Shown: positions 48,320-64,000 of the stretch, piece by piece
Numbering within the stretch: the stretch's first letter is position 1
How the letters are laid out: the number at the start of each line of letters is the position of its first letter
NCBI RefSeq assembly: GCF_000798815.1
Contig: NZ_JTLD01000121.1
Span: forward strand, 1 to 64,000
Length of the DNA: 64,000 bases
Reading direction: 5' to 3'
Source: Alistipes sp. ZOR0009
GTDB taxonomy: Bacteria; Bacteroidota; Bacteroidia; Bacteroidales; ZOR0009
The notes under the pieces: generated by a model
The model's database searches: none
What the model saw: only the letters and a program-made list of their open reading frames with translations
What the model was told of the DNA's origin: nothing
Translations under genes and position numbers: made by a program

Positions 48320-49159
48320 ATGATTGTTACAGATGACGATTTAGTTAGTTTCATTCGAATCTTGAAGGATGGTGGTGGTTATGATCTTAGCGAATATTCA
48401 GACAAGTCGCTGAAAAGGAGGTTGGAAAAGGTTTCAGAAGATTCTCGATTGCCGTTCAATCAGTTTCTCAGTAACATAAAAACGAATAAGGAATTTGCCG
48501 AAAAAGTACTGAAAGATATTACAGTGAATACCACAGAGTTGTTTCGTGATCCTGTAATGTGGCAGCAGTTAAGGCATCGGATTCTCCCTCGTTTTAAGGG
48601 AAATAAGACCATCAACATTTGGCATGCAGGCTGCTCTACCGGGCAGGAGGTTTACTCTATGATTATCCTTCTGAACGAAATGGGAATGCTCGATAAGGCA
48701 AAAATAGTCGCTACAGATATCAACGGCGATGTGCTTGATATGGCTCGAAAGGGAGCCTACAAGTATCGTTTCAACATTGGCTATTTAGATAACTTCGATA
48801 AGGTTATTAGGCATAACCCCTTCAACTACGAGGAGGTGATTGATGTGCCTTATGAAAAGTATTTTGAAATAAGTAAAGTTAAGGATACGCTGGCTATCAG
48901 AAAAGAGTATACAGATATTCCTTTCTTTAGGAAGCACGATTTGGTGCAGGATGGAACTTTTGTTTATGCAAAATTTGACCTAATCCTGTGCCGAAATGTG
49001 ATTATTTACTTTAACAATAGCCTTCAAAATAAGGTTTTCGGGCTTTTCCATCAAAATCTATACTCAAACGGCTGTCTTGTATTGGGAGCGCATGAGTCAA
49101 TTCTTGGGCCATGGTCATCTCGATTTGAGAAAAATGGTACGTTTTATTTTAAAAAGTAG
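48320..49159 (+). CDS. cheR: CheR-type protein-glutamate methyltransferase
   Basis: 279 residues. The helical CheR N-domain (about 1-75, LSEYSDKSLKRRLEKVSEDS and VNTTELFRDPVMW) is followed by the SAM-binding domain with INIWHAGCSTGQEVYSM (near 95-111), a ATDINGD acidic segment and LILCRNVIIYFNN. All are intact, so methylation of glutamates on a receptor-like partner is expected. No chemoreceptor, CheA or CheW is encoded in the window. It opens a ten-gene plus-strand run; the 178-bp gap before it holds AT-rich sequence and no promoter I can call with confidence. Confidence 0.93.
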   Translation: MIVTDDDLVSFIRILKDGGGYDLSEYSDKSLKRRLEKVSEDSRLPFNQFLSNIKTNKEFAEKVLKDITVNTTELFRDPVMWQQLRHRILPRFKGNKTINIWHAGCSTGQEVYSMIILLNEMGMLDKAKIVATDINGDVLDMARKGAYKYRFNIGYLDNFDKVIRHNPFNYEEVIDVPYEKYFEISKVKDTLAIRKEYTDIPFFRKHDLVQDGTFVYAKFDLILCRNVIIYFNNSLQNKVFGLFHQNLYSNGCLVLGAHESILGPWSSRFEKNGTFYFKK

Positions 49160-49161
49160 GT

Positions 49162-49995
49162 ATGGCTATGGCGGAAATAGGAATTGTAGATACTCGGAAT
49201 ATTCTCAAGATTATAGCTGACAAGTCAGGATGGAATTTTAGTGACTTTTCCATTACATTTCTGAAGCGGCGTCTTGAGCATATCTTGCAGCAGCAAGGGC
49301 TTCAAAATGTCGAAACGTTAAAGCGTAAGCTTGAGTTTGATAGCGCATACTTTGATGTTTTCTTAGCAGAATTTATTCCATCGACAACTGAGATGTTTCG
49401 CGATCCCTCTCTTTGGCGATTTTTGAAGGAGTCGGTGATGCCAGAATTGGCATTGAGTGCGACACCTCCCAAGATTTGGATTGCCTCGTGGGATAGCGGG
49501 GAGGAACTTTATTCGCTGGCGATTCTTTTAAAGGAGATGAATTTGCTGGGGAAGGTGAAGGTTTACGCTGCAGATTACTCAGATTCGGTTACCAGGCAGG
49601 TAAAAGCAGGGATGCTTGACCCAAAGAAGATGGAAGTCAATGAGGCAAACTATCTTCGCTTTCATGGGAAAGCCACTTTTGATAGCTACTTCTCGACTCA
49701 GGCTGATGGATCATTAAGAATTAATCCAGAACTGATTCGTGATGTAGTTTTTATTCGACAAAATGCTAATTTTGATAGTTCGGTTTTGGGGTGTAAGCTG
49801 GTGCTATTCCGAAACCAGCTAATATGTATGAATATAAGTCAGGAAGAGAGGGTTATAAGCCGTTTACGTGATTGTGTTGTGGCGGGTGGGTTTTTGGTTG
49901 TTGGTATAAAAGAAAACCTAGAGCATCTGCCGGCATCGAATGCGTTTACGAATATTAATAGCGCGGAAAAGGTTTATAAACGAAAAATTGGATAA
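49162..49995 (+). CDS. Degenerate CheR-like protein
   Basis: 277 residues, collinear with the preceding CheR: FSDFSITFLKRRLEHIL and STTEMFRDPSLW match its N-domain. In the methyltransferase half the SAM loop GCSTGQE is replaced by SWDSGEE, and LCRNVIIYF by LFRNQLICM, so SAM binding and catalysis look damaged. It is therefore probably a regulatory pseudo-methyltransferase derived by tandem duplication, perhaps forming a heterodimer with CheR or binding its target. It starts 2 bp after cheR and ends 3 bp before cheB. Confidence 0.82.
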   Translation: MAMAEIGIVDTRNILKIIADKSGWNFSDFSITFLKRRLEHILQQQGLQNVETLKRKLEFDSAYFDVFLAEFIPSTTEMFRDPSLWRFLKESVMPELALSATPPKIWIASWDSGEELYSLAILLKEMNLLGKVKVYAADYSDSVTRQVKAGMLDPKKMEVNEANYLRFHGKATFDSYFSTQADGSLRINPELIRDVVFIRQNANFDSSVLGCKLVLFRNQLICMNISQEERVISRLRDCVVAGGFLVVGIKENLEHLPASNAFTNINSAEKVYKRKIG

Positions 49996-49998
49996 CCA

Positions 49999-50556
49999 AT
50001 GTATAAGGCAATAATAATTGGTGGCTCGGCTGGTAGTTTTCAGGTAATAACGAAAATCTTACATTCGTTACCTGCCAACTATCCTATTCCGATAATTCTT
50101 TGCCTTCATAGGTTGAAGCATGTGCGTTCTGGCTTTGTGGAGGCTTTGTCCATTAAGTCAGGAATACCTATCATTGAGCCAGAAGATAAAGATGCGATTA
50201 AGCCAGGAAAAGCATACTTGGCGCCTGCCAATTACCACATGTATATTGATTTGGGTAACCGCATAGCGCTATCAACCGAAGAGCCCGTAAACCACTCTAG
50301 GCCTTCTATTGATTTGTCGTTCATAAGTGCTGCTCAAACGTACAGGGATAAGCTTCTGGGAATTATCTTATCGGGAGCGAATAAAGATGGGGCTTACGGG
50401 TTAAAGCGGATTAAAGATTTTGGAGGAACTTGTATTGTTCAAGATCCGAAAGAGTGTCAAGTAAGCACGATGACGGAATCTTCCCTTAAGTTGATTAAGG
50501 CAGATATGGTGCTTAATACAAACCAAATAATTCAGCACTTGCTGAAATATAAATAA
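49999..50556 (+). CDS. cheB: CheB-type methylesterase domain protein
   Basis: 185 residues, only the catalytic methylesterase domain; the receiver of classical CheB is missing. The catalytic triad is visible: S10 in IIGGSAGS, H37 in LHRLKH and D130 in ILSGANKDGAYG. It should remove methyl groups added by CheR, with regulation that does not use its own receiver. It lies between the CheR-like gene (3 bp) and a GAF membrane protein (8 bp). Confidence 0.92.
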   Translation: MYKAIIIGGSAGSFQVITKILHSLPANYPIPIILCLHRLKHVRSGFVEALSIKSGIPIIEPEDKDAIKPGKAYLAPANYHMYIDLGNRIALSTEEPVNHSRPSIDLSFISAAQTYRDKLLGIILSGANKDGAYGLKRIKDFGGTCIVQDPKECQVSTMTESSLKLIKADMVLNTNQIIQHLLKYK

Positions 50557-50564
50557 GAATAAGT

Positions 50565-51317
50565 ATGAAGTTAGCGACAAACGTGCTGTTGGTCTGCTTG
50601 TTGTTGTTTGGTGTGGCTACGTTTGTATTTTTGCAAAACGCAGTTGTCAAAGGTAGTTCACCATCTGCTGGTTACGTCTTTCTGGCATTGACGCTTTTTA
50701 GTGGAGCCATGCTCTACTCGATGACGCTTTTTATGAATGAACGCATAAAAAAGTTGACTCAGCGGCTAGAGCTGCTTTCTACTTCGTTGGATGAATCGCT
50801 GCAGGCAGTTGAGGCCGATGAGGAAGTAGAGCAAAAAAAATCATCGCAGGAGTTAGCACGTAAAATTGCGGATAAAATTGCAGCTGATGGACTTAGTGTT
50901 GAGGATTTTTCGGAAGAGATTCTTTCAAGGCTTTCCAAAGAGGTTCCTTTTGCTCATGGACTTTTCTATATGAGGCAGCAAGGAGGAGAGGCTTTTTTAC
51001 CCACCGCTCGCTTTGCTTTTTATAGTGATAGGGAGTTGGATGGTTTTTCTGTGGGAGAAGGTATCAATGGCCAGGTGGTGAAGGATGGTAAGTCTGTAAC
51101 CATCGATACGATTCCGGATAATTATGTTCATATTGTTTCAGGTTTAGGAAAAACGAATCCGCGAGCAATAACATTAACACCTATTATGCAGGAAGGCAGA
51201 TCGGTGGCATTGCTAGAGTTGGCGTTTCTTTCGCAACCTACTGAGCATGATAAGCAGGTTGTTGATAGTTTTTGTACTTTGATTTCCAATAAAATACCAA
51301 TACTACAAGAGGCGTAA
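50565..51317 (+). CDS. Two-span membrane protein with cytoplasmic GAF domain
   Basis: 250 residues: two hydrophobic spans (about 7-26 and 36-56) with a short outside loop, a coiled linker (60-105) and a GAF domain (about 120-245). The GAF segment GEGINGQVVKDGKSV...DNYVHIVSGLG closely parallels the GAF domain of the next protein (GEGLIGQCAYERDLI...GDYVSITSGIL), so the two are related by duplication. It has no output domain and may be a sensor subunit for the SpoIIE phosphatase, whose gene begins one base after its stop. Confidence 0.82.
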   Translation: MKLATNVLLVCLLLFGVATFVFLQNAVVKGSSPSAGYVFLALTLFSGAMLYSMTLFMNERIKKLTQRLELLSTSLDESLQAVEADEEVEQKKSSQELARKIADKIAADGLSVEDFSEEILSRLSKEVPFAHGLFYMRQQGGEAFLPTARFAFYSDRELDGFSVGEGINGQVVKDGKSVTIDTIPDNYVHIVSGLGKTNPRAITLTPIMQEGRSVALLELAFLSQPTEHDKQVVDSFCTLISNKIPILQEA

Positions 51318-51318
51318 G

Positions 51319-53919
51319 ATGGAAACTGCTAAAAATAGAATTGTTGCATTACTGCAGTCGAAACAACTGATATACTATACGTTATCTTTGGTAGTTATTC
51401 CTGTCGCTGCGTGGATTCTTGCGATCTCAACGAAAGGCTATGACGCTTCTTTTACCTCTTTGGCAAAGGTTCATGCAGAGGTTCCTGTTCTCTGGCTAAT
51501 CAACTTTTTGCCGATCGTTTTTGCGGTGCTTTCTGTTAGTTTTTTGAAGGCGTACAAGAGGAAGGTTGAAGAGTTGGAAGGAGAGGTTACTGTTAAGTCG
51601 CAAATCATTAGTAAGAATGCCTTCTTTGCGAAGCAAATTGGAGAAGGAAATTTTAAAGTTGATATTTCGTGCCAAGACGGAGATGTTCTTGCAAAATCAC
51701 TCTTGGTGATGCGCGATAATCTGCTGAAGAATAGTACAAAAGAGGCAGAAGAAGCTTGGATTGCTGAAGGGAAGGAGATTATCTCTAACATTCTTCGTAT
51801 TCATAATAAGCTCGATGAACTTTCGTATGAGGTCCTTGTAAGCCTTATTAAGTATACAAAGGTAGTTCAGGGTGCTTTCTACTTTTATGATGATGAGCGA
51901 AATCTCATTGTTAATCTTGCCTCCTATGCCTATAATCGCCGGAAGTACATTAAGCAGGAGTTTAAAATAGGAGAAGGCCTTATAGGTCAATGCGCCTATG
52001 AGCGAGATTTGATTTATAGGACTGAGGTTCCTGGCGACTATGTTTCTATTACTTCAGGAATATTGGGGGATCAGAAGCCTAAGAGTATCATTATGATACC
52101 TCTTATTTCTGATGAAAAATTGTATGGAATTTTGGAGTTTGCATCAGTCTCGGAGATTCCGCCATTGACTATTCGCTTTTTTAAGGAATTAGCAGAGATT
52201 ATAGCTCGGACCATTTTTAATATTAGCGTTAATGAGCGTACCGCTAGGTTGTTGCACGAGTCGCAGCAAATGACAGAAGAGCTTAAAGAAAATGAGGAAG
52301 AACTTCGTCAGAATGCGGAAGAAATGATGGCAACTCAGGAAGAGTTGGAGCAATCGAACAACCGCCTTGAATCGCAGATTAAGGAGGTGGAGAATGTTCA
52401 AAAAAAGCTTCACTCCTTGCTCGAAAATGCATCAGAGGTTATTTCAATTTACAATAAAGATCTAGAGCTCTCTTACATTAGTCCTTCTGTAACATCAATT
52501 CTTGGTTTTACACCAGAGGAGATGGTGCAAGGAATGGATAAGGACCGGTTGACTAAGAAGGGAGAAGAAAGTTTGGACGAACTTTTTCAAAATCTGCTAT
52601 ATAATCCGAATGAAAGCTATACCATACAGTATACTTTCATGAAGAAAAATGGCGATAAGATTTACCTTGAAGTTACAGGCCGTAACCTTCTATCCGATCC
52701 CGCAATTAGTGGTATTATCCTTAATATGCAGGATATTACGGAGCGTAAGCGTGCGGAAAAAGAGGAGCGCATGAAGAGTAAAATGCAGGCGCTATCAGAA
52801 AATTCTCCCGATCTTATTATGCGATTAAGCATGATGGGACAGGTTTTCTATATAAACCCCACCGTAAATTCCTACTTTGATATCGATGCTAAATCAATTC
52901 AAAACCAAACTGTTGCTGCTAGCTCTTTGCCTGAGCCTTTGGTGGTTTTTTTGATGGATGCTATAGGTAAAATTGGGGAAACAAAGCAAAAGCTGGAGGA
53001 TGATATTTCATTTGATTCAAACTTTGGGAAAACCATTATGCACATTGTGGCTATTCCCGAGTTTAATGAAAATGAGCTGGAGACGATCCTTTTTGTTTCT
53101 CATGACATTACAGAGTCTAAGCGAATCGGAATGGAGATTCAAGAGAAGAATAGGAATATTACAGAGAGTATTAACTACGCGCAGCGTATCCAGAGCTCAA
53201 TACTGCCTGATAATAGGCTGATTCGTAAGTATCTTCCCAATTCTTTCATTTTCTACCTGCCGAGGGATGTTGTTAGTGGAGATTTTCCTTGGATGTTTGT
53301 AAAGGATCCGAATACCATATACGTGGCTGCTGTTGACTGTACGGGGCATGGTGTTCCGGGTGCGCTGCTCTCTTTTATTGGCTATTTCATCCTAAACAAT
53401 ACTGTTGATAGGGATCGCTACCTCAGTGCAGGAGAGGTGCTAGACGCTTTGCACAACGAGGTTCGGACGACGCTTAAGCAGGATAGGGTGGATGCTGATG
53501 CTCGTGATGGTATGGATATCGCTCTTTGTAAAATTGATTTGAAGAACAATGTGCTAGAATTTGCAGGTGCACATCGCCCTCTTTACTTGCTAAGAGACAG
53601 CCAGCTGCAAGAGTTTAAAGGAGAACGTAGGGCTATTGGAGGAATTCCTTCGGCTAAAAAAGCCGAGCAGCCGTTTACGAACCATACCATTCAGCTGCAA
53701 CCAAGCGACAGGGTATTTGTGTTTTCTGATGGACTACCAGATCAGGTAGGTGGTCCAGATAAGAAAAAGTACTCGGCCGCCCGTATTCGCGAGCATATTG
53801 TGCGGAATGCGCATCTTCCGATGAGTGAGCATGAGGAATTTTTTAATAAAGACTTTTCGGAATACAAAGGCGATGTAAAGCAGATTGATGATATCCTGCT
53901 AATTGGAATTGAATTTTAG
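51319..53919 (+). CDS. SpoIIE/PP2C phosphatase with membrane, GAF and PAS domains (SiaA-like role)
   Basis: 866 residues. Two membrane spans (about 16-34, 54-75), GAF (150-300), a coiled coil (305-365), PAS (370-475), a second PAS (485-595), then a PPM/SpoIIE phosphatase domain (600-866). The phosphatase metal aspartates lie in VVSGDFPWMF, AAVDCTGHGVPGA, RDGMDIALCKID, FSDGLPDQVGG and KQIDDILLIG. Such enzymes dephosphorylate a small regulatory protein in partner switching. With SiaB- and SiaC-type genes directly downstream it takes the place of P. aeruginosa SiaA. PAS and GAF domains imply an intracellular signal rather than a periplasmic one. Confidence 0.93.
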   Translation: METAKNRIVALLQSKQLIYYTLSLVVIPVAAWILAISTKGYDASFTSLAKVHAEVPVLWLINFLPIVFAVLSVSFLKAYKRKVEELEGEVTVKSQIISKNAFFAKQIGEGNFKVDISCQDGDVLAKSLLVMRDNLLKNSTKEAEEAWIAEGKEIISNILRIHNKLDELSYEVLVSLIKYTKVVQGAFYFYDDERNLIVNLASYAYNRRKYIKQEFKIGEGLIGQCAYERDLIYRTEVPGDYVSITSGILGDQKPKSIIMIPLISDEKLYGILEFASVSEIPPLTIRFFKELAEIIARTIFNISVNERTARLLHESQQMTEELKENEEELRQNAEEMMATQEELEQSNNRLESQIKEVENVQKKLHSLLENASEVISIYNKDLELSYISPSVTSILGFTPEEMVQGMDKDRLTKKGEESLDELFQNLLYNPNESYTIQYTFMKKNGDKIYLEVTGRNLLSDPAISGIILNMQDITERKRAEKEERMKSKMQALSENSPDLIMRLSMMGQVFYINPTVNSYFDIDAKSIQNQTVAASSLPEPLVVFLMDAIGKIGETKQKLEDDISFDSNFGKTIMHIVAIPEFNENELETILFVSHDITESKRIGMEIQEKNRNITESINYAQRIQSSILPDNRLIRKYLPNSFIFYLPRDVVSGDFPWMFVKDPNTIYVAAVDCTGHGVPGALLSFIGYFILNNTVDRDRYLSAGEVLDALHNEVRTTLKQDRVDADARDGMDIALCKIDLKNNVLEFAGAHRPLYLLRDSQLQEFKGERRAIGGIPSAKKAEQPFTNHTIQLQPSDRVFVFSDGLPDQVGGPDKKKYSAARIREHIVRNAHLPMSEHEEFFNKDFSEYKGDVKQIDDILLIGIEF

Positions 53920-53947
53920 TAAGAAACAATGAAATAATTAACTAGCT

Positions 53948-54520
53948 ATGGACAATAGGAGTATCAAGGGGTATATTGAGTTTATCTACGATTTCTATAA
54001 GTCGATGAAGGCTCATGAGATATCCTTAGTTTATGAAGGGGAGATAACACACCAGATCACCAAGGCATTTACAGCTCTTGCCGAGACGAATATGCTAAAG
54101 GATGCAGAATCGAATTCGGTGCAAAAGAAGGTATTTCACGTAATGGTTGAATGCCTCCAAAATATAAGTAAGCATGCCGATGGCTACACCACGGATAGCG
54201 AGGTGCTTTCTTCTCGTGGACTATTCATGGTGAGCAAAAATTCGGAAACCTACTATGTAACCACAGGCAATATTGTGGAAAATGATAAGATAGAGGAGCT
54301 AAAAACGTTGCTTAACCATATCAACTCTTTGGACAAAGAAGGTCTTAAGGTGCTGCATAAGACACAAATGCAGGAAGGAAGGCTATCCGAAAAAGGAGGT
54401 GCAGGTCTCGGATTTATAGACATTGCTAGAAAAACAGGGAATAAGTTGGAGTACCATCTTCTACCTGTAGACGACGATACCCACTTCTTTGTACTTACTT
54501 CAACAATAACTCGCGAATAA
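53948..54520 (+). CDS. siaB: SiaB-family protein kinase (DUF6272)
   Basis: 190 residues. It belongs to the GHKL-like SiaB family: VMVECLQNISKHADG (about 75-89) is the N-box with the Mg-binding asparagine, and EKGGAGLGFIDIARKTGN (about 147-164) is the G-box. In P. aeruginosa SiaB phosphorylates SiaC and the PP2C phosphatase SiaA reverses it. Here the phosphatase is 28 bp upstream and the SiaC homologue 21 bp downstream, so the switch is complete. It has no sensor domain of its own. Confidence 0.9.
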   Translation: MDNRSIKGYIEFIYDFYKSMKAHEISLVYEGEITHQITKAFTALAETNMLKDAESNSVQKKVFHVMVECLQNISKHADGYTTDSEVLSSRGLFMVSKNSETYYVTTGNIVENDKIEELKTLLNHINSLDKEGLKVLHKTQMQEGRLSEKGGAGLGFIDIARKTGNKLEYHLLPVDDDTHFFVLTSTITRE

Positions 54521-54541
54521 ATAAAAAGCATTTATATAGCC

Positions 54542-54922
54542 ATGGAAACAATCAAAATCCTAGGGACAGACGATACTCCAAACGTAATTTTGGATGCTAA
54601 TAACGAGATTTTTGAAATCTCTGGACGATCGCTTCCTGAAGATGTGAGCGCATTTTATGAACCAATTCTTGCTTGGCTCGACGAGTATGCTCAGAATCCT
54701 AACCCCAAAACGATATTTACGTTTAAGTTGGTTTATTTCAATACAGCATCTTCTAAATTATTGCTCGATATACTAATGCGTTGCGAGCACATGAAGGAGG
54801 ATGGTGCTGACGTTGTTATTCGTTGGTGCTATCCAGACGATGATGAGGATATGCAGGAAGCAGGAGAAGAGTATGCTGATATTGTGGATGTTCCATTTGA
54901 GATGGAAGCTTACTCTCTGTAA
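54542..54922 (+). CDS. siaC: SiaC-family regulatory phosphoprotein (DUF1987)
   Basis: 126 residues of the DUF1987/SiaC type, a fold distantly like anti-sigma-antagonists. The predicted phosphorylation site is T68 in YFNTASSKLL, which falls at the same position number as T68 of P. aeruginosa SiaC. GTDDTPNVILDANNEIFEISGRSLPED is the conserved N-terminus. In Pseudomonas the dephosphorylated form activates the diguanylate cyclase SiaD; no GGDEF gene is present in this window, so the target here must be something else. The ABC transporter gene follows after 43 bp. Confidence 0.92.
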   Translation: METIKILGTDDTPNVILDANNEIFEISGRSLPEDVSAFYEPILAWLDEYAQNPNPKTIFTFKLVYFNTASSKLLLDILMRCEHMKEDGADVVIRWCYPDDDEDMQEAGEEYADIVDVPFEMEAYSL

Positions 54923-54965
54923 AACTATTGCATAATTGAAATATCTGGCTTGATAATTTTGTACT

Positions 54966-57900
54966 ATGAGTGAAGAGATTCTTAGGGCGCTGATGCAGCT
55001 CTTTGCGATCGTCGTTAAGCAGGATGATGGTGTAGAACTGAAGGAAAGGGAGTATGTAGAGAACTTTCTTGTCCAGCAGCTTAACGAGGATGCCGTAAAG
55101 GAGTATGTTGCACTATTCGAACAGCATGCAGGGCTACGGAGCACCGATACCGATGATGAAAAGGATAACCGAAAAGGGAAGTTAACTTCCGTTAAGGATT
55201 CCGTGCGAATTCTTGGTATCTGTAAGAAAATTAACAAAACTCTGACTCAGAGGCAGAAAATTATTGTATTGGTTCGCCTATTCGAATTGGTAAATTCCGA
55301 AGGGAGATTTTCGGAGCAACGAATGGCAATAATCAATACCGTTGCCGAGGTATTCAACCTTGCGAAAGAAGAATTTAAGGGTATACAGGATTTTGTACTC
55401 AACAACTCTCTCGATGGATTCGATTCGCCAGAAGTGCTTACAGTCCATAGCAGCTTATTAAAAGTAAATGGAAAGCAAATTGTTTCAGAGGGGTTGTCGG
55501 GTGCTATTGCCATCCTTCAAATAAAATCGGTGGAGCTTTACTTCCTCAAGTATACAGGGAAGGATGATATCTTTTTGAATGGATTACCGATTAATAATAA
55601 GCGTATTTACCTTTTTGCTAATGGTTCGACTATTCGCTTACCAAAGGCAAAGCCAATTTACTATTCCGATGTGCTGTCCCGTTTTATGGCAGATGAAAAC
55701 TACACCAGACTTTCGTATGAGGTGCAAAGTATCAGCTACCAGTTTAAAACAGGGAATCTTGGCTTACGAAAAATTTCATTTTCAGAAGAGCAGGGAAAGC
55801 TTGTCGGAATCATGGGGGCAAGTGGTGCTGGAAAAACAACGTTGCTAAACGTCCTTTCTGGCATCGAACGGCCCACGGAGGGAGCTGTCCTTATCAACGG
55901 AATCGATTTGCATTCTCAAAGAGAGGATTTAAAAGGGATTATAGGCTTTATTCCTCAGGACGATTTGCTGATTGAAGAGTTAACCGTCTTTGAAAATCTG
56001 TACTACAACGCGAAGCTCTGCTTTAAGGATAAGTCAGATGTCGAAATTCGCGAGTTGGTAGAGAAAACGCTGCTTAATCTAGGATTAATAGATCAAAAAG
56101 ATCTGAAGGTTGGAAGTCCACTAAATAAAATGATTAGCGGCGGGCAGCGAAAACGGTTGAATATTGCGTTGGAGCTTATTCGCGAGCCTTCTATTTTGTT
56201 TGTAGACGAACCTACATCTGGACTTTCCTCTAGAGATTCCGAAAATGTGATGGATCTCCTGCGCGAGCTTGCGCTTAAGGGGAAGCTTGTTTTTGTGGTC
56301 ATTCACCAGCCCTCGTCGGACATCTACAAGATGTTTGATAATATGCTCATCCTTGATACGGGAGGCTATCTAATTTACCAAGGGAATCCTGTAGAAGCAG
56401 TCATGTATTTTAAGCGCTTAGATGCGCAAATTAATAGTGAGGTAGGAGAGTGTCCCTCGTGTGGTAATGTCAATCCCGAGTTAATATTCAATATTATCGA
56501 GGCTAAGGTTGTTGATGAGTTTGGACGGTATACGGCAACGCGAAAAGTCTCCCCTCCAAAATGGGAGGAGCATTATCACGAAAATGTAAAACTACCAGAG
56601 GTAACTCCTGTTAATGAAGCACCTCCTGCTGCTTTGCGTATTCCCTCTAAGTTAAAGCAGTTTCTGGTTTATACACTGCGTGATTCTAAGAGTAAGATAA
56701 GTAATGTGCAATATGTTGTTCTCAACTTGCTCGAAATGCCCGTTCTGGGATTCGTTTTAAGTTATGTAACTCGCTATATTGCAAATCCGAAGTCAGATAT
56801 CTACATATTTAAGGAAAATGAGAATATCCCAATTTTTATTTTCATGTCCATTATCGTTGCCCTTTTTGTAGGGTTAACGTTGAGCGCGGAGGAGATATTT
56901 AGAGATAGAAAAATACTAAAAAGAGAATCTTTTTTAAACCTGAGCCGTTTTAGCTATTTGCTCTCTAAAACCCTTATACTTTTAGTTTTATCTGCTATTC
57001 AAACATTTTTGTTTGTGATGGTGGCTAATACAGTGCTAGATGTTAAGGACATGTACTTGTCGTACTGGCTGGTGCTGTTTTCAACATCTGTTTTTGCAAA
57101 TCTTTTGGGGTTAAATATATCGGCAACATTCAATTCCGTTGTAACCATATACATTGTTATTCCATTGTTAATGATACCAATGATGGTGCTTAGTGGTGCT
57201 ATGTTTACGTTCGAGAAGTTGAATAGAACAATTAGCAGCACCAATAAAGTTCCTGTTATTGCCGATCTGATGGCGACTAAATGGGGGTATGAGGCTTTGG
57301 TTGTTCGGCAATTTAAAGACAATGAGTTTGAGAAGTATTTTTATGATATAGAGAAGGAAGAAAGTAAAGCGAACTACAAGCTCGTTTGCTACATTCCTGA
57401 GCTTCAAAAAAGGTTAGATCAGAATGCTGAAGCTTTAAAAAATAGATCTCTGCCACGTAATGAAGAGCTGTTAAAGGATAATCTAGCTGTTTTGCACCGT
57501 GCTTTTGAGCGAGAAGCGGTTGCTGTTCCTGAAATTAGGTTTAATCAAATCGGTAGTGTTGATTATAAATCATACAGTAACACCGTTAACGATGCAGCGT
57601 ATAGCTATACCGAAGATCTTGTTAACTATTACGGTAAGATTTTCGCCAAATATAATGGGAAGAAGGAGGCTGTTCGGGCATGGATGGTTGCAAAGAATGA
57701 GGCGATTTACAACCAACTTCGAGCGCAATATCATAATGAAAGTATAACAGATTTAGTAAAACGACCATTTGAGAAAAACAAGGTTCTTCAATTTGGAGAT
57801 GAGTTGGTTCAGCAGTATGAGCCAATTTTTAAAGACCCAGAACCCAAAGGGTATTTTGACTTTAGATCCCATTTCCTTGCACCTCAGAAGCACTTTGCAG

Positions 57901-58055
57901 GTGTGTATTTTGATACTTTTTGGTTTAACTTGTTTGTGATTTGGGGAATGTCGATCCTTCTTTTTGTTGCACTATACTTCGAACTATTTAAAAAATTGTT
58001 ATTTTCGTTTCCATCTAAAGTTGCATTTTTGCTACATCGTAAAGTTGAGGAATAG
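54966..58055 (+). CDS. ABCG-type ABC transporter with N-terminal TerB-like domain
   Basis: 1029 residues. Residues 1-~125 are helical and TerB-like (VVKQDDGVELKEREYVENFL). Residues ~150-235 (LTVHSSLLKVNGKQI, LNGLPINNKRIYLF, GSTIRLPKAKPIYYSD) are beta-rich and FHA-like. The nucleotide-binding domain has Walker A GASGAGKTT near 283, signature ISGGQRKR near 390, Walker B ILFVDEPTSG near 410 and VIHQPSSDIYK. A short CPSCG motif lies near 500. Spans fill ~580-760, then a ~200-residue soluble region and a last span near 985-1010. It looks like a reverse-orientation half-size transporter that would dimerise. Substrate unknown. Confidence 0.88.
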   Translation: MSEEILRALMQLFAIVVKQDDGVELKEREYVENFLVQQLNEDAVKEYVALFEQHAGLRSTDTDDEKDNRKGKLTSVKDSVRILGICKKINKTLTQRQKIIVLVRLFELVNSEGRFSEQRMAIINTVAEVFNLAKEEFKGIQDFVLNNSLDGFDSPEVLTVHSSLLKVNGKQIVSEGLSGAIAILQIKSVELYFLKYTGKDDIFLNGLPINNKRIYLFANGSTIRLPKAKPIYYSDVLSRFMADENYTRLSYEVQSISYQFKTGNLGLRKISFSEEQGKLVGIMGASGAGKTTLLNVLSGIERPTEGAVLINGIDLHSQREDLKGIIGFIPQDDLLIEELTVFENLYYNAKLCFKDKSDVEIRELVEKTLLNLGLIDQKDLKVGSPLNKMISGGQRKRLNIALELIREPSILFVDEPTSGLSSRDSENVMDLLRELALKGKLVFVVIHQPSSDIYKMFDNMLILDTGGYLIYQGNPVEAVMYFKRLDAQINSEVGECPSCGNVNPELIFNIIEAKVVDEFGRYTATRKVSPPKWEEHYHENVKLPEVTPVNEAPPAALRIPSKLKQFLVYTLRDSKSKISNVQYVVLNLLEMPVLGFVLSYVTRYIANPKSDIYIFKENENIPIFIFMSIIVALFVGLTLSAEEIFRDRKILKRESFLNLSRFSYLLSKTLILLVLSAIQTFLFVMVANTVLDVKDMYLSYWLVLFSTSVFANLLGLNISATFNSVVTIYIVIPLLMIPMMVLSGAMFTFEKLNRTISSTNKVPVIADLMATKWGYEALVVRQFKDNEFEKYFYDIEKEESKANYKLVCYIPELQKRLDQNAEALKNRSLPRNEELLKDNLAVLHRAFEREAVAVPEIRFNQIGSVDYKSYSNTVNDAAYSYTEDLVNYYGKIFAKYNGKKEAVRAWMVAKNEAIYNQLRAQYHNESITDLVKRPFEKNKVLQFGDELVQQYEPIFKDPEPKGYFDFRSHFLAPQKHFAGVYFDTFWFNLFVIWGMSILLFVALYFELFKKLLFSFPSKVAFLLHRKVEE

Positions 58056-58058
58056 TAA

Positions 58059-58988
58059 ATGGGAATAGTAAATAAAGCTGCTTGCCTGTTGATTATGGTC
58101 TTTTTGTTAGGTTCCTGTATGTCGGAAACTGCCAAAAAGGCAAAAAATGAGTTTGACATTCCAGATTCATTGGTTTCTGCAGATACGACACGGGGCGAAC
58201 AGGCTCTTGATGAAACTAAGGATATGGTAGATCATATGGTGGAGAACATGGGGTCTCCAATAGAGACTATCGCCATGTTGAAGAGCCTTGGGATACCTTT
58301 TAATAGTACGCTATTGGCCGATAATGATAAAAGCGATAGTTTTAATAGTAGCTATTCTCAGGCTGCGGCTTTAGGTATTTATGGGGCCGATTTGGGGTAT
58401 CTCAACTTCTACGGAAAAACATCGCTCGTTTTAAGCTATATTTCCACGGTAAAAGGGTTGGCCGATGAGCTTAAAGTTGGACAGTTTTTCGACTATGGAA
58501 CGCTTAAACGCCTTGCAAATAATAATGAAAATGTCGATTCACTTATTTTTATTTCTCGTAAGAGCATGAATAGAATCGACCAATATCTTCGAAAGACGCA
58601 AAGAAGCAGTATTAGTGCAGCAATTGTAACAGGAGTTTGGATTGAAGGAATGCACTATTTGACGCAGTTTTATAAGTTAAATAAGAAAAGTAGGCTAAAG
58701 GAGGCAATTGGCGATCAAAAAACGCTGCTTGCCCAACTTTTGAAGGTTTTGAAGAGCTACAACTACCATCCTGAGATTGCCAGCCTTGAAAAGGATATGA
58801 TGTACCTTTATGAAGGCTACAAGGGGGTTACAACTACAATTGAAAGTGGCGAACCTGAATACAAGGAAGTAAATGGTGTTTATACCGTCATTCAGCATGA
58901 TAGAACGGTTATTAATATATCAAGCCAGCAAATTAGCGATATTACAGCTCGTACACAAAAGATAAGAAGTAAACTGTTGGGAGAGTAA
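58059..58988 (+). CDS. Predicted lipoprotein, helical
   Basis: 309 residues with a lipoprotein signal peptide; lipobox LGSC, C20 the lipidated residue. The mature part is mostly helical (LKSLGIPFNSTL, SKLLGE at the end) and shows no enzyme motif or recognisable family. It begins 3 bp after the ABC transporter and precedes a secreted protein by 4 bp, so it is probably an envelope component of the same system, for example an accessory to export or a signal partner of the CheR-phosphatase module. Confidence 0.72.
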   Translation: MGIVNKAACLLIMVFLLGSCMSETAKKAKNEFDIPDSLVSADTTRGEQALDETKDMVDHMVENMGSPIETIAMLKSLGIPFNSTLLADNDKSDSFNSSYSQAAALGIYGADLGYLNFYGKTSLVLSYISTVKGLADELKVGQFFDYGTLKRLANNNENVDSLIFISRKSMNRIDQYLRKTQRSSISAAIVTGVWIEGMHYLTQFYKLNKKSRLKEAIGDQKTLLAQLLKVLKSYNYHPEIASLEKDMMYLYEGYKGVTTTIESGEPEYKEVNGVYTVIQHDRTVINISSQQISDITARTQKIRSKLLGE

Positions 58989-58992
58989 ATCG

Positions 58993-59445
58993 ATGAGAAA
59001 CAAAATATTCATATTTATATTGCTGTCCGTAGTAACTTGCCTTATAGGCGTCAATAAGGCCGCTGCTCAATCCGAGGAGGCGCTGCTAGAAATTAACGGC
59101 AAAAAGGCAAACGCTAACGGTAAGGTTACGTATCAAAGCGACTTTAAGATTAAGCTTATGGAAGGAACTCCTGCTCCTCAAAGCAAGTTCACCATTCTTC
59201 TTAATAAAAATGTGCAGTATCGTTTTGTTATTGTAAGCTCTAGAGACTTACCTGGGCAGGGTATGTTTAAGTTGTTAGATAACTCAAAGGTGGTAATAAA
59301 TAGCTATATGGAGGCGACAGATAATATCATGACGGTCGTCGATTTTAATTGCACCAAAACGGGGCCTTATCACCTTTTTTGTGAGTTTAAAGATGGAATG
59401 GCGGGGAACGCTGTATTGGGTGTCTATCTGGTCAAAATACTATAG
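58993..59445 (+). CDS. Small secreted protein of unknown function
   Basis: 150 residues with a signal peptide (hydrophobic 5-22, cleavage near AAA-QSEE). The mature ~125 residues form a likely beta-sandwich (KFTILLNKNVQYRFVIVSS, GPYHLFCEFKDGMAGNAVLGVYLVKIL). There is no lipobox. It is the last gene of the ten-gene run, ended by a strong terminator, and could be a substrate or periplasmic partner of the ABC transporter; I do not recognise the family. Confidence 0.7.
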   Translation: MRNKIFIFILLSVVTCLIGVNKAAAQSEEALLEINGKKANANGKVTYQSDFKIKLMEGTPAPQSKFTILLNKNVQYRFVIVSSRDLPGQGMFKLLDNSKVVINSYMEATDNIMTVVDFNCTKTGPYHLFCEFKDGMAGNAVLGVYLVKIL

Positions 59446-60354: not shown

Positions 60355-60381
60355 GAAAAGGGGGCTTTAAGCCCCCTTTTC
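60355..60381. terminator. Bidirectional terminator between the AT-hook gene and the hybrid kinase
   Basis: GAAAAGGGGGCTT (60355-60367) pairs with AAGCCCCCTTTTC (60369-60381), giving a long stem with flanking A and T runs on both strands. It serves the two converging genes. Confidence 0.85.
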
Positions 60382-63238
60382 AATAGTTAAATCTTTTTGC
60401 TTTGGGATTCCATTTGACAATCATTTTTTCAACAACTTCTATTTTTATTGGTTTGCTCGTATAGTCATCCATCCCTGTTCTTAGACAATTCTCCCTATCT
60501 GCTCCTAAAGCACTTGCCGTCATTGCAATTATTTTTGGACGATTTTCTTTATATTTCTCAACAATTCTGCGAGTTGCTTCTAATCCATCCATTTCAGGCA
60601 TTTGGATATCCATGAAGATGAGATCGTAGGTTTGCCGTTCTAACGCTTCAAGCACTTCCAGTCCGTTTGCAACGATGTCTACTGTGTACCCATAGTAGGA
60701 AAGTGTTTTTCGCATCAATTTTTGGTTTATTGTATTGTCTTCTGCAACTAGTATTTGTATTGGATATTGTTCGTGTAGCTTTGATTTATCTTCAAGTATT
60801 TGATTTTCGTAGTCTGCTATGTCATTTGACAGAAGTGTTTTCTTTAGCGTATTTACAAAGTTTGATAGCTTTAAAGGAAGGTAGAGCTGTGCTATAAATC
60901 TGTTACTTTCTATTTTTTCGTGTGTAGGGTTTAGCAGTATGGCTCTTACTCCTTCAACATGGTAGGTTGGGTCATCGGTAATTACAATGGATTTATCATA
61001 CGATCTTGCAGCAGATGAAATGTTAAGTGCTTCCAGAAAATTTCGAATTACAAAACGATCGTGTTCGTTGATGATATGAGGAAAGATGGATATATCGTTT
61101 AGTTTTGTCCCTATTGCGGTTATATCCACAACTCCAGTCATCTCTAGTTTGATGGTAAAGGTGAACGTTGATCCAACATTTTCTATGCTATCAACGTTTA
61201 TTGTGCCTCCCATCATCTCAACTAACTTGCTGCTAATTGCTAATCCTAGCCCAGTTCCTCCGTATTTACGTGTAATTGTAGAATCTACCTGGTTAAAGGC
61301 TTTGAATAGCTTATAAGCTTTGTCTTTTGGGATTCCAATACCTGTATCTACAACTTTAAACTCCAATGTTAGGGGAAATCCGGTTTTGGCATGTTCCAGC
61401 ATTCGGACTTCGATGTTGATGCTACCTTGATGGGTAAATTTAATTGCGTTTCCCACTAGGTTTACAAGAATTTGACGAATGCGGCTTACGTCTCCCGTAA
61501 ATTTCCTTTTTATATCAGGGCTAACCCAATAGCTGATATCTATGTTTTTTTGGCTCGCAGGAAGCCAGAATAGATCGAGTACGTCTTCGATGCAGAGGCG
61601 GAGATCGAAGGGGTTCAATTCTAGCTCCATATTTCCCGATTCGATTTTTGAAAAATCGAGAATGTCGTTAATTATTGTAAGAAGAGCATCGCCGCTATTA
61701 CGGATTGTCGCAAGATATTCCCGCTGCTCTTCATCTAGCTTGGTTCTTTGGAGAAGGCTAGTCATTCCAATAACACCATTCATTGGGGTTCTTATTTCGT
61801 GGCTCATAGTTGCCAGAAATTGGGTTTTGGCTTTGGCTGCGTAGGCGGCTTCTTCCGACATCTTCTTGGCTTGTTTTGTTGCTTCTTCGAGCGATGCATT
61901 TAGTTCAAGTAATTTTTCCGTTTTCGATTGAAGAGCATTGGCAAGTTCTGAATGGGATATTGCTCCTCCTAAACTTTGAGCAAAGCTGTTCAATATGGCA
62001 ACTTCATTTGTCGGTACAAGTATTTCAGATTCAGAGCTCGACAAAGAAAGTATTCCCCAAAGTTTTTTTTCTAGCAAAATGGGAAGGAAAATGATCGATT
62101 TTATGTCTAGCTGCTGGCAAATGGATTGTACTTCGAGAGGCAAACTGTCTGTTGTTTCATTTATTGCATTTCCTTTACTTAGTGACGATAAGTAAGAATG
62201 AATGGATGGAGAGAATGAAATGTATTCGGAATCGTGGTGTTGATTAGGGAGGCTAAACCCGTTTTTAATCCATTCAGAACGTATTTTTAGCTTATATTCG
62301 GTTTCCGAGGAGGAGGCCATTTCTAGGATACAAATGCGATCTTTATTACATGCTTGTCCTACTTTTTCTATGGCTGCAAGTACTGCATTTTCTATATTCT
62401 GAGGATTTGAAGTGAGAAGCATGTTTAAGGCCGATGTTACTCCAGCCAAAAGGTTAGTCTGGAGTTGGCTTTTTTTATTACTGCGAAGTATTTCTGTGAC
62501 ATCCTGAAATGTGTAAATATTACCACTAAACAGATTTTCGATTTCTACATGTTGGTGGTTTATGTTGATATCTTTGCCTTCAGTCGTTAAAAAAATGGCG
62601 CTGCTTCTTTTTCTTGCTTTTTTTGATTTTGGAGAGAACTCGGAAATAAAGGTTTCTGGACTGGTGAAAACATTGGCGTATTCGGTCAGATTGCGGATAA
62701 AGTTTGTACCTGTAATGTCTTGTGAGTCAATTTTTGTACAGATGATGTTGCAGAACTCTTGATTAGCGAATAAAATGTCATGATTTTCGTCCGTAATCAG
62801 AATACCAGAGTTTACGATATCAATGATGGAACTGAACTTAGCAGTTGTTGAACTTTCTAACCGTAGTAGTCTGCTATCTCTTATTTCTTTGATAAAAGCA
62901 ACGTATTCAACTTTTATGTTGTGATTTTGGGCTATAAGTTTTAGATGAAATTGAATTTTTTCACCCTTCATATTTTTGCCAATTTGGAAGGATTCCCCTT
63001 TAAGTGCTTCTAATCCATCCGTATTTCTAGATGTGGATTTCGCATTATATGGCCATAGTAAATCAAAAAAGGATTTTTCCTCAATGTCTTTTTTGCTAAA
63101 TCCAAACAGAGTGCAGGCCGCTAGATTGGCAGTAATAATGGAACCATCTTTTGTGAGATAAATTACACCTTCGAATAAGTTTTCAAACAAATTTGCTGGT
63201 TCGCTATTGTATTGAACTTTCACTACATCCTTTTCCAT
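60380..63238 (-). CDS. Hybrid histidine kinase with PAS, GAF and C-terminal receiver
   Basis: 952 residues and no membrane span, so cytoplasmic. PAS (about 10-120), second PAS (135-250), GAF (280-435), coiled linker (440-475), HisKA with H480 in MSHEIRTPMNGVIG, HATPase with DTGIGIPKD and YGGTGLGLAISSKL (640-680), a degenerate receiver (about 715-810) and a complete receiver (825-945) with D874 in LIFMDIQMPEMDG and K in TSKPIK. It could phosphorylate an Hpt protein such as that at 32417, 28 kb away. It is 33 bp from the upstream partial kinase, and the two share their C-terminal architecture. Confidence 0.93.
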   Translation of the reverse strand: MEKDVVKVQYNSEPANLFENLFEGVIYLTKDGSIITANLAACTLFGFSKKDIEEKSFFDLLWPYNAKSTSRNTDGLEALKGESFQIGKNMKGEKIQFHLKLIAQNHNIKVEYVAFIKEIRDSRLLRLESSTTAKFSSIIDIVNSGILITDENHDILFANQEFCNIICTKIDSQDITGTNFIRNLTEYANVFTSPETFISEFSPKSKKARKRSSAIFLTTEGKDININHQHVEIENLFSGNIYTFQDVTEILRSNKKSQLQTNLLAGVTSALNMLLTSNPQNIENAVLAAIEKVGQACNKDRICILEMASSSETEYKLKIRSEWIKNGFSLPNQHHDSEYISFSPSIHSYLSSLSKGNAINETTDSLPLEVQSICQQLDIKSIIFLPILLEKKLWGILSLSSSESEILVPTNEVAILNSFAQSLGGAISHSELANALQSKTEKLLELNASLEEATKQAKKMSEEAAYAAKAKTQFLATMSHEIRTPMNGVIGMTSLLQRTKLDEEQREYLATIRNSGDALLTIINDILDFSKIESGNMELELNPFDLRLCIEDVLDLFWLPASQKNIDISYWVSPDIKRKFTGDVSRIRQILVNLVGNAIKFTHQGSINIEVRMLEHAKTGFPLTLEFKVVDTGIGIPKDKAYKLFKAFNQVDSTITRKYGGTGLGLAISSKLVEMMGGTINVDSIENVGSTFTFTIKLEMTGVVDITAIGTKLNDISIFPHIINEHDRFVIRNFLEALNISSAARSYDKSIVITDDPTYHVEGVRAILLNPTHEKIESNRFIAQLYLPLKLSNFVNTLKKTLLSNDIADYENQILEDKSKLHEQYPIQILVAEDNTINQKLMRKTLSYYGYTVDIVANGLEVLEALERQTYDLIFMDIQMPEMDGLEATRRIVEKYKENRPKIIAMTASALGADRENCLRTGMDDYTSKPIKIEVVEKMIVKWNPKAKRFNY

Positions 63239-63271
63239 AATCTTGATATCAAACTGTTATACATCTATTTT

Positions 63272-64000
63272 TTAGGATTTTCCTTTTATCCTTTTTCCCC
63301 ATTTTCGAAGTAGCTCTTCTAACGTTTCGAGTTTTAAAGGTTTACTGACAAAGTCAGACATTCCTACGGATATGCATTTTTCTTTATCTTCAGGAAATGC
63401 TCCTGCTGTCATTGCAATTATTATAGGTTTAGATTCGTTATCCGCTTCGCTAATGATTTTGGAGGCCTCCAGTCCATCCATTTCGGGCATTTGTACATCC
63501 ATTAGTATGAGGTCGTACTTTTGCCGTTTTAGGGCATCTATAGCCTCTAATCCGTTAGCTGCGATGTCGCAGGTGTAGCCGAAAACCATCAACGCTTTTA
63601 CTATTAATTTTTGGTTGATGGAGTTGTCTTCTGCGACAAGTATCGCTAAAGGGTATTCATTAAACAGGTTTACTGTTTGTTTGGTTGTTTTTATGCTATG
63701 ATTTTTTTGGGAGGATGCTATGGATGTTAGTTTTCGTATAGTATTTGCGAAAATGCTAAATTTAATGGTTGGAAGTAGAACCACGCTGTGATTTGCAAGA
63801 ATTTGGTCAGAAGAATTTTCTTTGATAAGTATGGTTTTAATTGTTTCTGTTTGGGAGTAAGGTACATCCGTTATGGCGATGTCCGATGTTGTAATTTGTT
63901 TCTTTTGATGTATATCTAAAGAATTGAGCATGGAAAGGATGCTTTGCCTTAGCTGTTTGTTCGAGATGTTGCAGTATGCACTAATTGGCTTGCTAAGCTC
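63272..64000 (-). CDS. C-terminal part of a second hybrid histidine kinase, cut by the window edge
   Basis: The frame is open to the last base of the window with no stop upstream, so the start lies beyond 64000; an internal ATG at 63931 is probably not the start. The visible part has a degenerate receiver (ending near 63680, VVLLPTIKFSIFANTIRK) and a complete receiver with LAILVAEDNSINQKL, phosphoacceptor in LILMDVQMPEMDG (D144 counted from 63931) and K in VSKPLK. It parallels the last ~250 residues of the adjacent hybrid kinase, so a tandem duplicate is likely; the kinase domains are expected further left on the minus strand, outside the window. Confidence 0.85.
   Translation of the reverse strand, partial: ELSKPISAYCNISNKQLRQSILSMLNSLDIHQKKQITTSDIAITDVPYSQTETIKTILIKENSSDQILANHSVVLLPTIKFSIFANTIRKLTSIASSQKNHSIKTTKQTVNLFNEYPLAILVAEDNSINQKLIVKALMVFGYTCDIAANGLEAIDALKRQKYDLILMDVQMPEMDGLEASKIISEADNESKPIIIAMTAGAFPEDKEKCISVGMSDFVSKPLKLETLEELLRKWGKRIKGKS

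Follow-up and report, generated by a model that had tools for sequence, protein, structure and literature searches.

The stretch of DNA analysed here, referred to as the window, comprises the first 64,000 nucleotides of contig NZ_JTLD01000121.1 of Alistipes sp. ZOR0009, and contains at positions 48320-59445 an operon of ten plus-strand genes that brings together two CheR-type methyltransferases, a CheB methylesterase, a SpoIIE-type phosphatase, a SiaB kinase, a SiaC phosphoprotein and an ABCG-type exporter. We propose, with a probability of about 0.5, that this is a conserved Bacteroidota operon in which adaptation of the chemotaxis type acts on a partner-switching phosphatase, the output being export. 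The observed basis of this proposal is the gene content and its conservation, the invariant catalytic residues, the absence from the genome of methyl-accepting chemotaxis proteins (MCPs) and of CheW-domain and GGDEF proteins, a motif shared between the phosphatase and receptor-like proteins, and the linkage of SiaC to the exporter. Domains were assigned with Pfam and NCBIfam, and the membrane, lipoprotein and secreted labels were judged by eye from the N-termini. The features of the operon, in gene order, are the following.

48320-49159, plus strand: CheR1, a CheR methyltransferase with intact S-adenosylmethionine and catalytic motifs (Pfam CheR, E 1.3e-37)
49162-49995, plus strand: CheR2, a diverged second CheR (Pfam CheR, E 2.1e-24)
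49999-50556, plus strand: CheB, a receiver-less methylesterase domain with its catalytic triad intact (Pfam CheB_methylest, E 2.5e-48)
50565-51317, plus strand: GAFm, a hydrophobic N-terminus followed by one GAF domain (Pfam GAF_2, E 8.9e-14)
51319-53919, plus strand: SiaA-like phosphatase, arranged as hydrophobic N-terminus, GAF, coil, PAS, PAS and SpoIIE/PP2C (Pfam domains)
52318-52335, plus strand: putative methylation motif EEMMAT, residues 334-339 of the phosphatase, within its GAF-PAS coil (EExxA[ST], as in E. coli Tar)
53948-54520, plus strand: SiaB-family kinase, DUF6272 (NF038262, 172 bits, cut-off 85)
54542-54922, plus strand: SiaC phosphoprotein, with Thr68 in YFNTASSK (Pfam SiaC, 137.6 bits, cut-off 24.5)
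54966-58055, plus strand: ABCG-type exporter, arranged as TerB, FHA-like domain, ABC ATPase and ABC-2 membrane domain (Pfam TerB, ABC_tran and ABC2_membrane; structure model)
58059-58988, plus strand: lipoprotein, mostly helical, of no known family (lipobox by eye)
58993-59445, plus strand: small secreted protein of no known family (signal peptide by eye)

The original prediction, made from the letters of the window, had described ten tightly spaced genes of these families, and this description is borne out: the reading frames lie at these coordinates, the domain searches agree, and successive genes are separated by 2, 3, 8, 1, 28, 21, 43, 3 and 4 bp. Its statement that neither a chemoreceptor nor a diguanylate cyclase accompanies the operon holds for the genome as a whole (4.45 Mb in 125 contigs, completeness 99.99%), in which the MCP signal domain, the CheW domain and GGDEF were each found zero times by searches that were positive in 7, 7 and 8 of 14 control genomes, respectively. 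In the absence of a CheW domain the genome therefore has neither CheW nor a typical CheA, and the possibility that an MCP/CheA/GGDEF set encoded elsewhere is the real partner was rejected. The genome search returned no CheR genes other than the two of the operon, and the operon gene is the only CheB among the matches listed. As the genome is devoid of chemoreceptors, CheR and CheB need another substrate. Other genomes, too, retain CheB while lacking MCPs: among the matches listed, an ABCG orthologue without any MCP occurs in 8 of 149 genomes of the order and CheB is present in all 8.

The ten-gene combination is real and is shared by many Bacteroidota; because the same order recurs in many families, it is not a product of chance, and the concern that it might be unique to this genome is thereby removed. 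The relatives were chosen by their exporter, and the counts below do not bear on the frequency of the other genes in its absence. CheR and CheB are in place in 13 of 20 loci from other genomes of the order taken by ABCG orthologue; no CheB lies beside the phosphatase in L046, L048, L052, L053 and L054, no SpoIIE gene was seen upstream in L044, and L050, truncated at the contig end, showed no SiaC. A scan of named genome contigs provided 80 further loci, and, with L057 and L058 dropped as duplicates of L039 and L042, the SpoIIE, SiaB, SiaC and ABCG genes stand on one strand in 62 of 98 distinct loci, the remaining ones being mostly paralogous or cut. Within these 62 loci the lipoprotein accompanies the core in 59, the secreted protein in 58, the GAF protein in 49, CheB in 47 and CheB together with CheR in 46. 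The carriers belong to Bacteroidales and Cytophagales; they include Marinilabiliaceae, Salinivirgaceae and Anaerophaga, and also Fulvivirga, Marivirga, Cesiribacter, Nafulsella and Flexithrix dorotheae, the latter five genera being, as we take it, Cytophagales.

At the level of the modification enzymes, the motif residues R, G, E, D and N of CheR1 are kept in 32/32 rows, the window included, and the Cys of CRN in 31/32; the alignment with E. coli CheR gives 25% identity over 224 columns. The operon CheB aligns with its E. coli counterpart, and the triad is conserved as Ser in 47/48 rows (one gap), His in 48/48 and Asp in 48/48. Judged from these alignments, the catalytic residues of CheR1 and CheB are kept as in canonical chemosensory enzymes. 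CheR2 follows a different course: in the 29 two-CheR loci, all of which have CheB, it lost the Cys of CRN in 29/29 and the Asp of ATDIN in 28/29 (the window alone keeps the Asp), while the FR Arg and RN Asn are still present in 29/29. In the single-CheR loci (n = 17), the lone CheR has the Asp in 15 cases and the Cys in 16; L073 and L102 are the loci that deviate. This pattern suggests a duplication, after which CheR2 would have specialised as a non-catalytic partner of CheR1; the CheR2 of the window is less degenerate than its relatives.

The PP2C domain of the phosphatase matches the SiaA structure 6k4e (E 5.1e-36), the six Asp/Gly columns of the active site are invariant in 63/63 rows, as is the Asp preceding the last of them, and the best NCBIfam match is SiaA NF038263 (E 1.1e-52), although its 179.5 bits remain below the cut-off of 700; a kinase domain was not found by Pfam. 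The pattern [EQ][EQ]xxA[ST] was found in this phosphatase and in none of the other 15 among the 16 window proteins scanned. The fetched sequence of Tar from E. coli K-12 carries EETAAS and EQLTAT, which we take to be its methylation sites. The EExxA[ST] of the SpoIIE coil is a candidate methylation site too, on the strength of this resemblance, and the coil-methylation reading is favoured because the Tar-like motif is absent from the other proteins scanned and because the genome, devoid of MCP, CheW domain and GGDEF, has no CheR or CheB beyond those of the operon. The original prediction had suggested methylation of a non-MCP partner, perhaps the GAF or the SpoIIE protein; the second half of this suggestion gains from the coil motif, whereas the GAF protein carries no EExxA[ST] in the motif scan and was rejected as a substrate on that ground. 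The context RQNAEEMxATQEEL, or one near it, is found in most motif-bearing relatives, Cytophagales included. In many Bacteroidales operons an additional gene encodes a GAF-coil-PAS-PAS protein whose motif reads, for example, EEMRQNMEELxATQEE, and in a ten-row CheB-positive clade that includes Marinilabiliaceae the strict form of the motif, EE[ML]xA[ST]x[ED], is absent from SpoIIE and kept in the adjacent receptor gene in 10/10.

The motif was counted against the presence of CheB across the loci. The strict form occurs in SpoIIE or the adjacent receptor gene in 46/53 CheB-positive against 5/15 CheB-less loci (Fisher 1.1e-4, kinship uncorrected), and in SpoIIE alone in 34/53, the window included, against 4/15 (Fisher 0.017). 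These counts omit the two duplicates mentioned above, L103 (no upstream sequence) and L167 (no SpoIIE gene found), and they count L073 and L163, which are the same locus, separately; with a wider small-residue form at both places, L161 (EEMRGT, EELQTT) would become motif-positive. One of the CheB-less exceptions with a motif is L054, whose genome (G010) has CheB genes on other contigs.

Outside the window, and thus beyond the view of the original prediction, lies a family of proteins that share the coil. A coil profile search of the genome returned 11 places, namely SpoIIE and ten genes on seven other contigs (C50, C25, C7, C4 with three, C30, C10 with two, and C20; loci L147-L155). By Pfam, Cache-type matches are present in seven of the ten proteins, four of them above the curated cut-off, HAMP in nine (two below cut-off), GAF in all ten and PAS in six, and no MCP, kinase or other output domain was found in them. 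Among the matches listed for 149 genomes, 43 of the 44 genomes with an ABCG orthologue match the coil profile, against 4 of the 105 without, a figure that includes the operon's own coil and from which kinship is not removed; the 44 genomes were drawn from the matches listed at an identity of at least 54%, partial hits included, with G033 left out (partial hit, 52%). Coil proteins also lie within 4 kb of a same-strand CheB outside the operon in at least nine genomes, among 150 rows each of CheB and coil matches. In the five of these that were fetched (L156-L160), all MCP-bearing Bacteroidales, the gene immediately after a receiver-type CheB encodes a GAF/PAS coil protein of about 760 residues, and the che cluster also comprises CheY, CheA, CheW and CheR in four cases and CheR in the fifth. 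Among the matches listed, CheB is found in 7 of 10 MCP-less genomes with the coil against 17 of 89 without (99 genomes, Fisher 0.0016).

These receptor-like proteins raise the alternative that the SiaABC-ABCG switch works as proposed and that the chief targets of CheR and CheB are the unlinked Cache-HAMP-GAF-coil receptors, which would signal to a different output, SpoIIE being unmethylated. It finds support in the coil shared by the unlinked receptors, in the ten-row clade that has lost the strict motif from SpoIIE, and in the 15 loci that hold SpoIIE, SiaB, SiaC and ABCG without an adjacent CheB. We nevertheless consider it unlikely, as CheR and CheB sit inside the phosphatase operon and the SpoIIE motif is present in most CheB-positive loci, the window among them. 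A further point against it is the phosphatase of Flexithrix (1152 residues), the single long Cytophagales phosphatase covered by the Cache scan, others being similar in length: it shows a weak Cache match ahead of GAF (E 1e-4, 22.4 bits, cut-off 45), and this fusion, if real, ties a sensor to the phosphatase.

Several observations weigh against our proposal of an adaptive phosphatase pathway. CheB presence changes only four times on the ABCG tree, which leaves three independent pairs; the association between motif and CheB is therefore not significant once kinship is allowed for and is suggestive only, and co-loss of the two was rejected as a proof, since three pairs cannot reach significance whatever the uncorrected Fisher value. 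The motif is kept in five CheB-less loci, and its strict form is absent in seven CheB-positive ones. In L073, CheB is present and the adjoining CheR is of the degenerate type only. Among the ten coil proteins of the genome, the motif reads EExxA[ST] in five, EExxST in four and EExxAA in one. When the comparison is limited to the 24 MCP-less genomes with ABCG, CheB is found in 7/10 with the coil against 7/14 without (Fisher 0.42, among the matches listed). Finally, the coil pattern persists in motif-less relatives, and a structural role is conceivable for the Glu-rich coils that separate GAF from PAS. It can be envisaged that CheR and CheB have a different substrate, such as the GAF protein, SiaB or the transporter, and that the coil motif belongs to a purely structural signalling helix; the survival of the coil after loss of the EE pair, together with the reported methylation of PhoP by Salmonella CheR in the extract of PMC8546571, speaks in favour. 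This explanation appears quite improbable, given that the motif matches Tar, turns up again in che clusters apart from the operon, where coil proteins adjoin CheB, and was found in no other operon protein.

Downstream of the phosphatase, the SiaB protein matches structure 6kko_A (E 1.1e-13), and its score against the narrower family NF038264 is 83 bits, below the cut-off of 225. The YFNTASSK segment of SiaC aligns with the NTSS segment of 6kko/6k4f, with Thr68 matched, and is invariant, Thr68 included, in 69/69 SiaC rows; the score against the narrow NF038265 is 79.6 bits, below the cut-off of 150. In Pseudomonas aeruginosa, SiaB and SiaA act on Thr68 of SiaC (PMC7647112; this and the other papers cited by PMC number are drawn on here as extracts), SiaC binds the helical stalk of SiaD, phosphorylation of Thr68 prevents this binding, and the authors propose a role for DUF1987 proteins in modulating adjacent proteins (PMC8457831). 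A second SiaC gene of the ZOR0009 genome stands alone on another contig, C39 (16902-17297 of L034), with no SiaB or phosphatase match in the 20 kb around it. In one relative (G047), a second SiaB, in a 374-residue frame, forms a pair with a SiaC directly upstream of CheR1 (1536-3040 of L165).

The adjacent protein in the present case is the exporter. In 67/98 loci SiaC and ABCG share a strand and are no more than 500 bp apart; of the 149 genomes of the order, 58 have both TerB-ABCG and SiaC, with five and five holding one only (among the matches listed; Fisher 3e-29, kinship uncorrected). In paralogous ABCG loci (L168-L187), a second arrangement is found, in which SiaC followed by SiaB is convergent to ABCG, with SiaC within 150 bp, in 11/20; the 20 loci yielded neither CheR nor CheB. 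SiaC is thus kept with ABCG in two arrangements, one of them without CheR and CheB, and is therefore tied to the exporter more firmly than these enzymes are. The claim of the original prediction that SiaC gates the transporter draws support from this double linkage, the contact itself being the inferred part. It may be objected that SiaC acts on an effector encoded elsewhere, ABCG linkage reflecting shared expression and not contact, a view that is compatible with either of the other alternatives. The precedent of Pseudomonas, where SiaC acts on a diguanylate cyclase (PMC8457831), the 9/20 paralogous ABCG loci with no SiaC within 500 bp and the 21 or more SiaC genes of some genomes argue for it; the lack of any GGDEF protein in the genome, the co-occurrence with few exceptions and the two arrangements argue against it, and we regard it as somewhat unlikely. 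SiaC is greatly expanded in some of the 149 genomes, with at least 21 copies in three, implying many SiaC effectors that are not yet recognised.

Concerning the exporter itself, Pfam TerB is found in 32/32 family members. A structural model of its N-terminal 264 residues (predicted local distance difference test, pLDDT, 83) comprises a TerB-like helical part, comparable with PG1108 (2h5n; Z 9.8, root-mean-square deviation (rmsd) 3.5, 118 aligned residues), and a beta domain, at about residues 154-242, that is predicted to be FHA-like. The solved structures nearest to the latter are FHA domains (best Foldseek E 0.02), with Z up to 7.9, rmsd 3.3-3.4 and 87 aligned residues; the model of residues 133-243 against FHA chain 1g6g_B gives Z 7.9 and rmsd 3.3, where the tool advises Z 8. 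Also to be set against our proposal, this domain does not conserve the residues that an FHA domain is expected to need for phosphothreonine binding. For this reason, and because phosphorylation of Thr68 prevents binding in Pseudomonas (PMC8457831), a reading of phospho-SiaC by a canonical FHA domain was rejected.

Taken together, the proposed mechanism can be described as follows. Signals would reach the SpoIIE phosphatase in part by way of its own membrane, GAF and PAS parts and in part from distinct Cache-HAMP-GAF-coil(-PAS) receptors. CheR1, perhaps assisted by a non-catalytic CheR2, would methylate the EExxA[ST] of the coil in SpoIIE and in the receptors, and CheB would demethylate it; the methylation state may reset the dimeric coil and, through it, PP2C activity. 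Thr68 of SiaC would be phosphorylated by SiaB and dephosphorylated by SpoIIE, and unphosphorylated SiaC could bind the TerB/FHA-like cytoplasmic part of ABCG to switch export; the lipoprotein and secreted protein may be envelope partners or cargo. We infer, in this scheme, the coil methylation and its effect on PP2C, the communication between receptors and SpoIIE, the contact of SiaC with ABCG, the sign of the steps and the cargo. Precedents in favour of the reading are the methylated S-helix of RsbK, the coiled-coil linkers that switch PP2C phosphatases (PMC12143880) and the stalk binding of SiaC; that SiaC acts on the exporter is favoured because the two genes adjoin in two arrangements. A fuller version, in which 'methyl-accepting' Cache-HAMP-GAF-coil receptors, CheR1, the pseudo-enzyme CheR2 and the receiver-less CheB form a CheA-free adaptive pathway through SpoIIE, SiaB and SiaC that gates TerB-FHA-ABCG, is possible, and we advance it tentatively, as slightly short of an even chance.

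The closest precedent is RsbM/RsbK of Bacillus cereus. In the extracts of PMC4574943 and PMC12848376, a CheR-type gene stands beside a HAMP/GAF/S-helix sensor, RsbK, which acts upstream of the RsbY phosphatase, is methylated by RsbM in its signalling helix, a cognate methylesterase is stated to be lacking, and output passes through RsbY and partner switching; the likeness lies in a CheR-type gene next to a GAF-helix sensor that feeds a PP2C phosphatase. RsbK is a hybrid histidine kinase, whereas here neither SpoIIE nor any of the ten coil proteins shows a kinase domain; CheR is accompanied here by CheB, the motif lies inside the phosphatase chain itself, and methylation is suggested by the motif. 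SiaABCD of P. aeruginosa resembles the operon in its PP2C phosphatase, SiaB kinase and SiaC with Thr68 (PMC7647112, PMC8457831); it differs in that here no diguanylate cyclase (SiaD) is found in the operon or the genome, an ABCG exporter gene follows siaC, CheR and CheB are added, and the sensor part is of GAF/PAS type. With the adaptation of E. coli MCPs the operon has in common the conserved catalytic residues of CheR and CheB and the EExxA[ST] motif, unlike which there is here no MCP or CheW-domain protein, CheB is receiver-less and a second, diverged CheR is present. Rv1747/PknF of Mycobacterium tuberculosis is a comparable case of an FHA-bearing ABC exporter linked to Ser/Thr phosphorylation (PMC3908365, PMC5549992), and the ABC ATPase here is, by Pfam, likewise fused to an ABC-2 membrane domain; the kinase type differs, and here TerB is combined with one FHA-like domain without conserved phosphothreonine residues and with a SiaC switch. 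In RsbU-type control, a coiled-coil linker sets the activity of the PP2C dimer, unlike the present proposal without covalent modification of the linker being described in the extract of PMC12143880.

Since its parts and its logic have precedents, the system does not appear to be categorically new. The original prediction had singled it out as the best candidate in the window for an undescribed system; among the titles and abstract starts listed by literature searches none describes this operon, and the closeness of RsbM/RsbK makes it less unprecedented than had been supposed. What the operon offers is a set of concrete candidate substrates, the EEMMAT of the phosphatase coil and the ten further coil proteins, together with an output. 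If the proposal is true, the reversible methylation of glutamate that serves chemotaxis as a molecular memory would be a portable module for tuning phosphatases, and SiaC would be a general effector switch, reaching ABC exporters as well as diguanylate cyclases.

The two last genes of the operon match no Pfam family at E 0.01. No Pfam family is matched by more than one of 37 members of the lipoprotein family, and the 22 members of the secreted-protein family have no Pfam matches. The lipoprotein model (pLDDT 85) has no solved structure below E 2, the lowest E in the PDB being 2.1. In the paralogous TerB-ABCG loci, a lipoprotein homologue lies upstream in 9/20. Two tRNA genes, both outside the operon region, and nothing else were found in the window by Rfam at the gathering threshold. 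Downstream of the operon, several related hybrid histidine kinase genes stand on the minus strand (60380-63931 and L033), and the open reading frame at 63272-63931 resembles by eye the C-terminal receiver part of a similar hybrid histidine kinase gene.

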